Origin: Alphaproteobacteria bacterium
GTDB lineage: Bacteria; Pseudomonadota; Alphaproteobacteria; Rhizobiales; Devosiaceae
DNA: 64,000 bases
Assembly (NCBI GenBank): GCA_018828145.1
Contig: JAHJWO010000010.1
Coordinates: 1 to 64,000 of the forward strand
Direction of reading: 5' to 3'
The notes beneath the pieces were generated by a model. It saw only the letters and a program-made list of their open reading frames with translations. It searched no databases and was not told the origin of the DNA. Both the position numbers and the translations under genes were made by a program. This document shows, in pieces, positions 48,645 to 61,952 of this stretch (its first letter is position 1; each line of letters opens with the position of its first letter).

Positions 48645-48710
48645 TGAACTTGCCGCAGGCCGCGCGACGTGGCACGCGCCGACTGGTGCGCAATTGCCAC
48701 AAGGGACGTG

Positions 48711-48726
48711 TTAAGGCTAGCTTAAC
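48711..48726 (+). promoter_or_regulatory. Perfect CtrA-type box upstream of outer-membrane protein
   Basis: TTAA-N7-TTAAC with all core positions matching the CtrA consensus. The same bases form the inverted repeat GTTAAG-N5-CTTAAC (48710-48726). It lies 64 nt before the start at 48790. Confidence 0.55.
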
Positions 48727-59118: not shown

Positions 59119-59218
59119 ACGCAACTCGGCGCATGAGGGGAGGACCAGCTGGCGCGCCCCTCACGCGCTCGTCATTAACCCTCACCCAATCCGCCACCGT
59201 TCTGCCGATATCGCTGTG

Positions 59219-59234
59219 TTAACCTCCCCTTAAC
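59219..59234 (+). promoter_or_regulatory. Perfect CtrA-type box upstream of 59252 gene
   Basis: TTAA-N7-TTAAC with all core bases matching; it ends 18 nt before the start codon at 59252. A second TTAACC half-site is at 59175. The short distance suggests repression, or a start site further downstream than assumed. Confidence 0.55.
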
Positions 59235-59251
59235 ATCGGGGCCCGTCGCAC

Positions 59252-60604
59252 ATGCAGCTCAAGCCGAACGCCTATCGCCTCAACGAAACCGTCAAGGGCG
59301 TCGAGACGATGACCCGCTTTGCCCTGGCCGTGCTGGCTCTGGCCTCGGGCGTCTATACCTATCTCGGTGTGCGCGGCCTGCTTGATGGCTCGGCCACCTT
59401 CGTCTTCTTTGCCGCCATCATCTATTCGGCCGCCGTGTCGGTGGCCATCTATGCCTTCTGGAGCTTCATGCTCCGCTTCGTGCCGCTGGTCACTTCCGGC
59501 GTGCAGCGGCTGGCTTTGTTCCTCACCATGGCCATTGGCTGCGCCATGATCATCGCCATGTCGAGCTGGCTCAACGCCGCCGCCCTCGCCGGCTCGGCCT
59601 CGCTGGAACAGCATATGGCCGTGACGCTGCAGGGCTATGCCGAGGATCTCGACAATGCCCATGCCAATGCGCTGGCCAGCCAGAGCCTCCTGCCCGACGT
59701 GCAGCGCGCGGCCGAGCGCTTTGCCGGCCTTGCCGCCGACGAGCGCGAAAGCGGCGCCCTGACCGGCACCACCGGCTCGGGCAGCGTCGTGCAGCTGCTC
59801 ACCCAGATGGGCACGCAGATGGACCAGCTGGCCGCCACCATTACCGGCTCGCGCGACGAGGTGGCTTTGCTGTTCGAACAGGGCTCGGCGCGCCTTGCCA
59901 CCATGCGCGAACTGGTCTCCACACCCGGCGCCATCGAGCCGCGCTCCGACAGTTTCCAGGCCGAGGCCGTCCAGCTCTCCGCCGTCATCGCCGCGCTGCA
60001 GCAGACCGACGTCGCCTCCTCGGTCAAGCGCGCCTCGGCTGACCTCTCGGCCGGCTTCATCGCCCCCGTCGCCGATGGCGGCACCGCCGATCTTGCCAAT
60101 CGGCAGGACCAGGTGATGGAAACCGTGCGTGCCTCGGTGGCCGCCCAGTCCGCGGCGCTGACCCAGGCGGCCGACGAGATCCTCGCCAATCCGCCGGTCG
60201 AGCAGCGCCGCTTCGTGCCGCTCTCCAGCGCCGAGGCGGTGATCCGCTACTGGCAGGACTTCATCCCCAGCTGGGCCGGCGCCATTTCCATCGACCTGCT
60301 GCCCGTCGTGCTGGTGCTGGTGCTGATGATCGTCAACGACGCCATGCGCAAGGATTCCGAATCCCTCGCCGAGGCCGAGAACATCACCGCCGCCGAAATG
60401 CTGCGCGCTATGGCCCTGTTCCGCCAGATGGAGGCGGCCGGCATCGATGTGTCCACCGGCCAGCCGCGCCAGGCGCCCGCGGCGCCGGTCGAGCCCGAAC
60501 CCATCGACACCGCCACCGTCACCGCCGCGGCGCCTGACGACGCCACCGTGACCCCCATCGATGCGGCGCAGCGCAAGCGTACCGACGGTCCCCGCCCGGC
60601 ATGA
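59252..60604 (+). CDS. Membrane protein with periplasmic helical region, unnamed
   Basis: A 450-residue protein I cannot name. Three membrane helices are close to the N-terminus (about 22-44, 49-75, 85-108). A long helical, Ala/Gln-rich region (about 112-340: EQHMAVTLQGYAEDLDNAHANAL … VKRASADLSAGFIAP … QVMETVRASVAAQSAAL) follows, and a last helix at about 347-365 (ISIDLLPVVLVLVLMIVNDA). The cytoplasmic tail is helical and then Pro/Ala rich. The arrangement resembles a receptor sensor region without a signalling domain. It overlaps the ClpP-like gene by ATGA and has a perfect CtrA-type box upstream. Confidence 0.72.
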   Translation: MQLKPNAYRLNETVKGVETMTRFALAVLALASGVYTYLGVRGLLDGSATFVFFAAIIYSAAVSVAIYAFWSFMLRFVPLVTSGVQRLALFLTMAIGCAMIIAMSSWLNAAALAGSASLEQHMAVTLQGYAEDLDNAHANALASQSLLPDVQRAAERFAGLAADERESGALTGTTGSGSVVQLLTQMGTQMDQLAATITGSRDEVALLFEQGSARLATMRELVSTPGAIEPRSDSFQAEAVQLSAVIAALQQTDVASSVKRASADLSAGFIAPVADGGTADLANRQDQVMETVRASVAAQSAALTQAADEILANPPVEQRRFVPLSSAEAVIRYWQDFIPSWAGAISIDLLPVVLVLVLMIVNDAMRKDSESLAEAENITAAEMLRAMALFRQMEAAGIDVSTGQPRQAPAAPVEPEPIDTATVTAAAPDDATVTPIDAAQRKRTDGPRPA

Positions 60605-61413
60605 AGACCGCCGCCAACGCCCGCGCCGAGAACACCACATTCTACCGCCGCCTGCTCCACCGGGCGGCCGCGGTCGATGACGGCAATATCCTGCGCGTCG
60701 CCTTCTTCGCCCTGCTGATCGGCACTGCCTCGGTGCTCTATGTCGACTTCCGCGAGCTGACCGAAAGCGAGGGCTCGGCCCTGGCCATGCCCATGCAGCC
60801 CATCCTGCCGCCCTATGATCCGGAGGGTCCTTCCGAAGGCGCGCGCCCCAATATAACAACCAGCCCTCAAGTGCTTGAACAGCCGCTGGAAATCGCCCTG
60901 GGCACCGGTGGACAACTCACCCTGACGGGCTCGATCGAGCTCGGTTCTGCCACCCGCTTCGCTGACGAGATTGCAGCCCGGGGAGAATACGTACAGACTG
61001 TGGTTCTCGATTCCCCTGGAGGGTCGGTCGTGGATGCGCTGGCTATCGGCAGTCTGATCCATGAAAAGGGCCTTGGCACCAAGGTCGCTGCCGGCTCGCT
61101 GTGCGCCTCGTCCTGCCCCATCATCTTTGCCTCGGGCGCCACCCGCATTGCCAGCCCCGAGGCGGCCATCGGCGTGCACCAGATCTATGCCGCCGCGCTT
61201 TCGGGCGATCCGCAGAGCGCCCTGCGCGTTGCCGGCGCCGCCATGAGCGACGCCCAGACCACCACCGCCGAGATCATAAGCCACCTCACCAAGACCGGCG
61301 TCGATCCGGCCCTGTGGCTGCATGCCCTCGAGACACCGCCCGACCGGCTCTATTACTTCACGGCAGAGGAGATGACGCGTCTCAAGCTTGTCACGCAACT
61401 GGCAAACAATTGA
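60601..61413 (+). CDS. Membrane-anchored ClpP-fold protein (COG3904-like)
   Basis: A 270-residue protein with one N-terminal membrane helix (about 30-50) and a periplasmic ClpP/crotonase-like domain (about 100-260). The segment VVLDSPGGSVVDALAIGSLIHEKGLGTKVAAGSLCASSCPIIFASGATRIASPEAAIGVHQ has the SPGG oxyanion loop and a serine in CASSC at the position of the nucleophile in ClpP/SppA relatives, with a following GVHQ histidine. Such COG3904 proteins are predicted periplasmic hydrolases. Coupled by ATGA to the membrane protein upstream, suggesting that the two act together. Not proven to be a protease. Confidence 0.75.
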   Translation: MKTAANARAENTTFYRRLLHRAAAVDDGNILRVAFFALLIGTASVLYVDFRELTESEGSALAMPMQPILPPYDPEGPSEGARPNITTSPQVLEQPLEIALGTGGQLTLTGSIELGSATRFADEIAARGEYVQTVVLDSPGGSVVDALAIGSLIHEKGLGTKVAAGSLCASSCPIIFASGATRIASPEAAIGVHQIYAAALSGDPQSALRVAGAAMSDAQTTTAEIISHLTKTGVDPALWLHALETPPDRLYYFTAEEMTRLKLVTQLANN

Positions 61414-61488
61414 TCGCCTGACAGCGGAACCGGCGGAGGACCGGACCGTTCCATCAGGTTAGCAAGCATATTGGCGGGGAGGCCAATA

Positions 61489-61779
61489 ATGACTCAGATT
61501 CATACCCTTACACGACACCGCGATATCCAGAACTGGGTGACCGATCGGCATGGCATTCCGGCAATTGCCCGGGTGCGCAACCGCTTCGGCGAAGAGCGCG
61601 CCCAGCTCAAGCTGAGCTTCCAGCGCCGCAACCGGCCGGGCCTTGCCAGCCAGGATGAGGGCCTCAGCCCCTGTTCCTGGACCGCCTGGCTTGCCGAACT
61701 CGACCGCCAGCAGCTGGCGCTGCAGGTCGACATGGCGGCCGACGACTGCGCCATCGTCGAGCGTCGCGCGGCGAGCTGA
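61489..61779 (+). CDS. Small uncharacterised protein, 96 residues
   Basis: A 96-residue soluble protein: TQIHTLTRHRDIQNWVTDRHGIPAIARVRNRFGEERAQLKLSFQ, then WTAWLAELDRQQLALQVDMAADDCAIVERR. I recognise no named family. GGGGAGG lies about 8 nt upstream of the ATG at 61489, a good ribosome-binding site, so it is likely expressed. It is 75 nt downstream of the ClpP-like gene and could belong to the same transcript. A GC-rich hairpin follows at 61803. Confidence 0.7.
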   Translation: MTQIHTLTRHRDIQNWVTDRHGIPAIARVRNRFGEERAQLKLSFQRRNRPGLASQDEGLSPCSWTAWLAELDRQQLALQVDMAADDCAIVERRAAS

Positions 61780-61802: not shown

Positions 61803-61823
61803 CCCCCGGACCTGATCCGGGGG
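61803..61823. repeat. GC-rich palindrome after small gene
   Basis: CCCCCGGA, 5-nt loop, TCCGGGGG. Resembles the dispersed hairpin at 25031-25049 and may act as a terminator for the preceding gene; the following bases are pyrimidine-rich (CCATTTCCCTTTCC). Confidence 0.5.
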
Positions 61824-61952
61824 CCATTTCCCTTTCCTTTGCATGACGTCACCCACCGCCCTCCGCGGCGGAGGCTGGCCTGCGCCAATCCGGCATTGCG
61901 AAAATTGCCGCTTCGGGGTCAATAGGCCGACCCTGACGATTCCCGAGACCTC

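Follow-up and report, generated by a model that had tools for sequence, protein, structure and literature searches.

A candidate two-gene envelope module of alphaproteobacteria pairing a helical membrane protein with a ClpP-fold protein

Two overlapping genes in the window (the whole stretch of 64,000 nucleotides analyzed here, part of a Devosia-like genome) encode a membrane protein, A, and a protein with a predicted ClpP fold, B, and their arrangement raises the question of whether they form a single system and what such a system would do in the cell envelope. An earlier note on this DNA had called them a candidate new system, which is a fair description: the pair was absent from the portions of the literature that we searched, and A has no convincing family match. 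Our searches addressed ClpP-like periplasmic and membrane proteases, CtrA, Devosia, and NfeD-stomatin proteins in sources that included few subscription papers. In the accessible parts of these sources, COG3904 led to work on Vibrio genomes and guessed locus tags of Sinorhizobium meliloti led to work on sRNA prediction, and the pair was found in neither. We propose, with a probability of roughly 0.6, that A is the membrane platform of B, a periplasmic ClpP-class peptidase, within one inner-membrane complex. The pair would then represent a strictly co-inherited envelope module of two genes in many alphaproteobacteria, S. meliloti included. Its features are listed in Table 1.

Table 1. Features of the A-B locus in window coordinates
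Feature	Coordinates	Strand	Basis
CtrA-type box GTTAACCTCCCCTTAAC (TTAA-N7-TTAA, both orientations)	59218..59234	+	Pattern search; conserved upstream of A in the Devosia group
Gene A, 450-aa membrane protein: three helices, helical part, one helix, tail	59252..60604	+	Hydropathy, structure model
A residues 102-114, AMSSWLNAAALAG, putative periplasmic end of helix 3	59555..59593	+	13/13 residues invariant, 26 rows
A residues 339-348, PSWAGAISID, start of helix 4	60266..60295	+	Conservation in 26-row alignment
Gene B, 270-aa membrane-anchored ClpP-fold protein	60601..61413	+	PF00574, structure model
B C168-A-S170-S-C172 (CASSC), putative nucleophile S170 between two invariant cysteines	61102..61116	+	C168, S170, C172 in 26/26 rows
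B H193, putative catalytic histidine	61177..61179	+	26/26 and 43/43 rows; aligned to ClpP HQ position
Gene C, 96-aa protein, function unassigned, Devosia-group neighbor, not core	61489..61779	+	Locus comparison; no family match
Weak terminator-like hairpin after C	61819..61832	+	4 in region versus 1.2 expected in shuffles

Genetic linkage and distribution of A and B

The A and B genes are joined, as had been described, by an ATGA overlap; it lies at 60601-60604, where the TGA stop codon of A (60602-60604) meets the ATG of B (60601), and the same overlap is found in 37 of 47 Devosia-group loci. When loci of the same order were retrieved using only A as the query (L003-L032, among them that of the window), B adjoined A on the same strand in 30/30. 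Across 297 genomes of the order, orthologues of A and B occur in the same 58, and no genome holds only one of them. The earlier note would have been undermined by genes unlinked in other genomes; instead, linkage is near perfect, with 58/58 genomes holding both. The corresponding Fisher p value of 3e-63, which is not corrected for kinship, overstates the case, because the training set of the B profile consisted of A-linked B proteins, the score threshold was chosen post hoc, and the genomes are related. That profile produced 59 places at 228 bits or more in the 297 genomes, the next scoring 124; the 228-bit line was set after this gap had been seen, which, together with the A-linked profile, favors the count of 58/58.

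At 57 of 60 A places, B lies on the same contig and strand, within 266 nt in 56 cases; the two genes are 1733 nt apart in one genome (G204). The other three places, in G211, in G016, and at one of the two pieces of A in G134 (the second piece there adjoins B), resemble contig breaks. Four further genomes of the order, and one second copy (G145), have only distant relatives of A. The genome searches score few first-look candidates per genome, and some absences may therefore be misses.

Within the class, a B-like protein is present in 37/385 genomes, and the A profile matches 9/385, the window's own counted. The four best B-like matches in the class after the window's own adjoin A (L081-L084), and the 25 further class loci that were fetched (L085-L109) have no A within ~1.5 kb. 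A draw from the phylum, whose share outside the class is unstated, gave matches in 18/378 genomes, all from the same order or class. Devosia accounts for 45 of the 48 B loci from named genomes. The A gene was also found on 139 plasmid records, and we checked for B beside it in four named ones, Sinorhizobium meliloti pSymB, Shinella zoogloeoides, Phaeobacter gallaeciensis, and Paracoccus albus; the pair adjoins in all four. B is annotated in these records as hypothetical or as a Clp protease subunit, and both genes of the pair are annotated as hypothetical in that of S. meliloti. In P. gallaeciensis, a lytic murein transglycosylase gene follows the pair on the same strand (L112:7914-11333).

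Predicted architecture of B and A

B matches Pfam PF00574 with 21.4 bits against a cut-off of 20.2. Its structure model consists of one N-terminal helix (residues 27-60) and a domain that aligns with the ClpP fold at a VIA-align Z score of 16.4 and an rmsd of 2.6 over 159 residues, and this predicted structure would place B in the ClpP/crotonase fold. Invariant positions in 26 diverse B rows, the window included, are S138, G140, G141, C168, S170, C172, P173, H193, Q219, and T245. The serine S170, flanked by the invariant cysteines C168 and C172 (26/26 rows), is likewise constant in a second set of 43/43 rows, so that the relatives do conserve a serine, a point on which the original proposal could have failed. 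We consider S170, the first serine of CASSC, the likely nucleophile rather than S171, since the latter is replaced in 6/26 rows (Ala in five, Thr in one). The model and the invariant serine thus favor B as a membrane-anchored ClpP-like protein with an apparent nucleophile, as had been suggested. Position 250, which aligns with the catalytic Asp of ClpP (presumably D171 in Escherichia coli), is occupied by L, I, M, or V in 26/26 rows. With Ser and His invariant and the Asp position hydrophobic, the triad is non-canonical, and B could be weak or non-enzymatic; the best reading of the alignment is a Ser-His hydrolase without the usual Asp.

The CxSxC motif is common to 30/30 related ClpP-fold loci examined and is hence not special to the A-linked branch. 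We take this wider family, and B with it, to be COG3904-like, the label used in the earlier note. An A partner is restricted to the A-linked branch, in that 26/30 loci of the wider family have no A within the ~3.4 kb fetched. The CxSxC ClpP-fold family gains its first specific partner, together with well-defined residues as targets for mutation. A second CxSxC ClpP-fold-like protein occurs in the same genome as the window (L002; 35% identity to B over part of the protein), with no A partner within the stretch fetched.

B shares with ClpP (Peptidase S14) the fold, the SPGG strand, and the Ser and His positions, but it differs in its predicted membrane anchor and periplasmic location, its hydrophobic Asp position, and the CxSxC around its serine. 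It also has no Clp ATPase gene beside it; the scanned neighbors encode a phosphorylase and a CPBP-type protein. In both NCBIfam (E 7.6e-9) and PHROG (4.3e-8), the best match of B is to phage ClpP-like head maturation proteases, but B reaches 35.7 bits against an NCBIfam cut-off of 120, has a membrane helix, and lacks capsid genes as neighbors. We also considered and rejected a phage origin of B; matches to half of the protein occur in four records of Agrobacterium phages, which represent two phages. SppA is a ClpP-superfamily membrane peptidase of the envelope that uses a Ser-Lys dyad; B matches it weakly (E 0.05), keeps Ser-His, and scores 13.2 bits against the TIGR00706 cut-off of 155.45, which leaves it outside the SppA family.

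The hydrophobic stretches of A lie near residues 16-68, which we take to be two helices, and near 87-105 and 343-361, and its model shows long helices between the membrane stretches, with a mean pLDDT of only 67.7. Hydropathy and model agree with the earlier description of four membrane helices and a large helical part; the latter spans residues ~108-340 and is probably periplasmic as judged by the positive-inside rule. The strictest motifs of A, in 26 rows from several families, lie at the two membrane ends of this helical part; at the second of these, P339, W341, A342, G343, A344, I345, I347, and D348 are invariant. The Pfam scan of the window's A returned a single match, PgaD at E 0.059, and matches among the 26 A proteins are scattered, with no family in more than 6/26 and a best E of 0.0008. 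NCBIfam, PADLOC, and PHROGs give either no matches or weak ones without a consistent family, and the A model has no match at E 0.001 or better in the PDB or among viral models. A role as a sensor was considered on the strength of a match to TorS (Z 9.6, rmsd 10.3) and rejected; this match is joined by designed bundles, ClyA, and BAR domains, and such matches are the usual background for long helices. The label "sensor-like" is less supported, as neither fold nor family matches are confident.

In the reading that we favor, A and B would belong to a single complex of the inner membrane that faces the periplasm. B would be a ClpP-class serine hydrolase anchored by its single helix, most likely a peptidase, acting through a Ser170-His193 dyad and an SPGG oxyanion strand. 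The transmembrane helices of A would hold B, its helical periplasmic part would gate B, assemble it, or bring substrates to it, and the ATGA overlap would aid a fixed A:B stoichiometry. We consider it unlikely that B is instead a catalytically dead or very specialized ClpP-fold scaffold and the pair a structural or signaling complex rather than an enzyme. Such a scaffold would account for the hydrophobic Asp position in 26/26 rows and for the two invariant cysteines, which recur in 30/30 related loci and could form a structural disulfide. The invariance of the Ser, the His, and the SPGG strand across orders would however be unusual for a dead enzyme, and dyad hydrolases exist in the ClpP superfamily, as in SppA and PH1510.

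Periplasmic peptidase B on its platform A would resemble the NfeD1b-SPFH1b (stomatin) operons, which likewise combine a gene for a membrane ClpP-class protein with one for a membrane partner. In these operons (for example PH1510/PH1511), the gene for a membrane protease with a ClpP domain is accompanied by one for a membrane scaffold (PMC2636767). In contrast, A has no SPFH (Band 7) match in the window's Pfam scan or among the 25 listed of 30 families for the 26 members, so the likeness is one of design and not of membership. The proteins also differ in layout, A having four helices with its helical part between the third and fourth, and B being short with a single helix.

The CtrA-type box and the neighboring genes

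A CtrA-type box precedes A, with TTAACCTCCCCTTAAC at 59219-59234 and the other-strand reading at 59218-59233. The match is perfect, as first claimed, and the gap to the A start codon is 17 nt rather than 18. Four strand-matches of the box are found in the window, at two places, against 0.01 expected by shuffles. The second perfect box, at 48710-48726, adjoins an ORF (L163:1581-2660) that matches an outer-membrane beta-barrel model. TTAA-N7-TTAA is given as the CtrA consensus in PMC9437464.

We counted the box in the 100 nt before A and took random 100-nt stretches from the same loci as the background. The perfect eight-base box is present in 28/51 Devosia-group loci (background, 0.7%), and a box with at most one mismatch is present in 38/51 (background, 1.2%). 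This count left out a duplicate of the window (L001), loci with partial A (L055, L058, and L078, of which L058 and L078 do have the box), and loci in which A starts too close to the edge (L081-L084). The start of the perfect box ranges from 32 to 58 nt before the A ATG across the Devosia group. Its sequence is thus maintained even as its distance from A varies, a pattern that speaks for function, though the loci are related. Among 24 loci from other genera and families, the perfect box occurs in 2/24, both in the window's family (background, 0.3%), and a box with at most one mismatch in 7/24 (background, 0.8%); in most other families tested it is absent or undetectable before A. That control by CtrA belongs to the system is less supported, the signal being clear only for Devosia and its family.

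The whole genome (a 4.43-Mb assembly) contains 40 strand-matches of the box versus 8 for the reversed pattern, and it encodes a CtrA orthologue with 85% identity to a Caulobacter CtrA query sequence. Genes were scanned at 16/21 box loci, yielding 20 proteins, 10 of them without a Pfam match. The neighbors identified by Pfam include FliX, FlgI, MipZ, an EAL protein, and a sigma-54-type response regulator, which we take to be a fit for a CtrA regulon. Also beside boxes are an Omp85 protein, a beta-barrel protein, an Ig/cadherin-like protein, a Shikimate_DH-domain protein, and a DUF6949 protein. The pair in the Devosia group carries the conserved upstream TTAA-N7-TTAA expected of the CtrA regulon, and this conservation suggests that A and B are probably turned on or off there at a particular point in the cell cycle.

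The third small gene with a good ribosome-binding site is present as described, its GGGGAGG (61476-61482) lying 6 nt before the ATG at 61489 and its start 75 nt after B, but a role for C in the system is less supported. C has no family in the Pfam, NCBIfam, PADLOC, and PHROG scans and was seen next to A and B in no loci but those of the Devosia group. We rejected it as a core gene, as it was not detected in L009-L032, loci that end ~0.6 kb after B. In D. enhydra, C lies ~5 kb from the A-B pair (L071:11904-12218), which marks it as a separable gene. The gene upstream of the pair encodes a deoD-type phosphorylase that was found close to A and B in some, but not all, Devosia-group loci, and the downstream gene encodes the CPBP-type protein.

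Distant relatives of A and their surroundings

An A profile built solely from B-linked A proteins also matches proteins without detectable B, at E 2e-17 to 4e-79, which indicates that the A family has uses beyond B. We widened eight of these distant loci (9-20 kb fetched), leaving out two contigs too short for a neighborhood count (L126 and L133; 3.2-3.4 kb). Genes for conjugative coupling proteins (T4CP) are present at 5/8, identified by Pfam in L192, L194, L195, and L196 and by tblastn in L197 (41% over 263 residues), and relaxases are present at 2/8 (L194 and L195); L193/L200, L198, and L199 gave no T4CP or relaxase match. A-type proteins may accordingly be an unrecognized part of alphaproteobacterial mobilization modules, as judged from these neighborhoods. 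Two small proteins encoded after the distant A are common to two genomes (L194:16567-17711 and L196:11293-12827); they share 36% over 86 aa, and 24% over 196 aa for the second gene, and belong to no Pfam family.

The least expected result was the recurrence of anchored partners beside A-type proteins. The next gene encodes a protein with a single N-terminal helix at 4/8 distant loci (L192, L193, L194, and L196), although the helix of L192 was read by eye and that of L196 exists only if the gene starts ~70 codons into the listed ORF. The next gene overlaps the distant A by ATGA in L194. At L193:1191-3378 (also given as L131), the distant A is overlapped by a single-helix protein with an M48-like HEIGH...ELEAD, whose M48 match of 17.7 bits, a single case, falls below the Pfam cut-off of 20.3; this partner would be another, putative, peptidase. 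Elsewhere, L195 has no single-helix gene after the distant A, L197 has a resolvase-type recombinase, and in L198 the next gene product has several hydrophobic stretches, as read by eye. A gene for an A-type protein followed by one for an anchored protein thus appears to recur in half of these few cases, with partner folds that differ.

These surroundings bear on whether the A family is at base a DNA-mobilization membrane protein working with a conjugative coupling protein, and A-B a domesticated or cargo version still serving conjugation or plasmid upkeep. The T4CP and relaxase genes noted above speak for such an origin, as do the plasmid records of A and its patchy presence (58/297 genomes). 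We nevertheless regard it as improbable: the T4CP and relaxase queries had no match in 48 Devosia-group A-B loci (545 kb in all), in the named plasmid A-B loci L110-L114, or in the short A-B loci L003-L032 (~4 kb each), and the pair in the window has a CtrA box. An anti-phage or toxin-like two-gene system would explain why the pair is patchy and partly plasmid-borne but is very improbable, given that PADLOC offers no defense-protein match for A, B, or C at E 0.1 and that the pair occurs in 45 Devosia loci with a CtrA box conserved in that group.

The platform-peptidase reading of A and B can be extended, speculatively, to the whole A family, as an alphaproteobacterial membrane hub with swappable anchored periplasmic partners. 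Such a hub would lie near T4CP genes and genes for small anchored proteins in mobile modules, once with a metallopeptidase-like partner, and would have been domesticated as the platform of a ClpP-fold protease made redox-sensitive by its invariant CxSxC cysteines, wired to CtrA in Devosia. The module suggests a connection of periplasmic proteolysis both with the CtrA cell cycle and with membrane proteins associated with conjugation.

In a tree of A and its distant relatives, the A-B rows need two label changes, but eight rows have very long branches, and the pairing may have had a single origin or more than one. Plasmid searches with the distant relatives L125 and L131 were set aside, as they returned the same genera as A and the position-compared rows were A itself; a search with L132 found nothing. 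We also rejected G979 (L201) as a relative, its match lying in an ORF antisense to a larger one. The genome G449 has a second match at E 1.9e-5. At L193:5748-9252, an AAA ATPase gene adjoins a subtilase-family gene, a layout that may represent a defense or mobile cargo pair.
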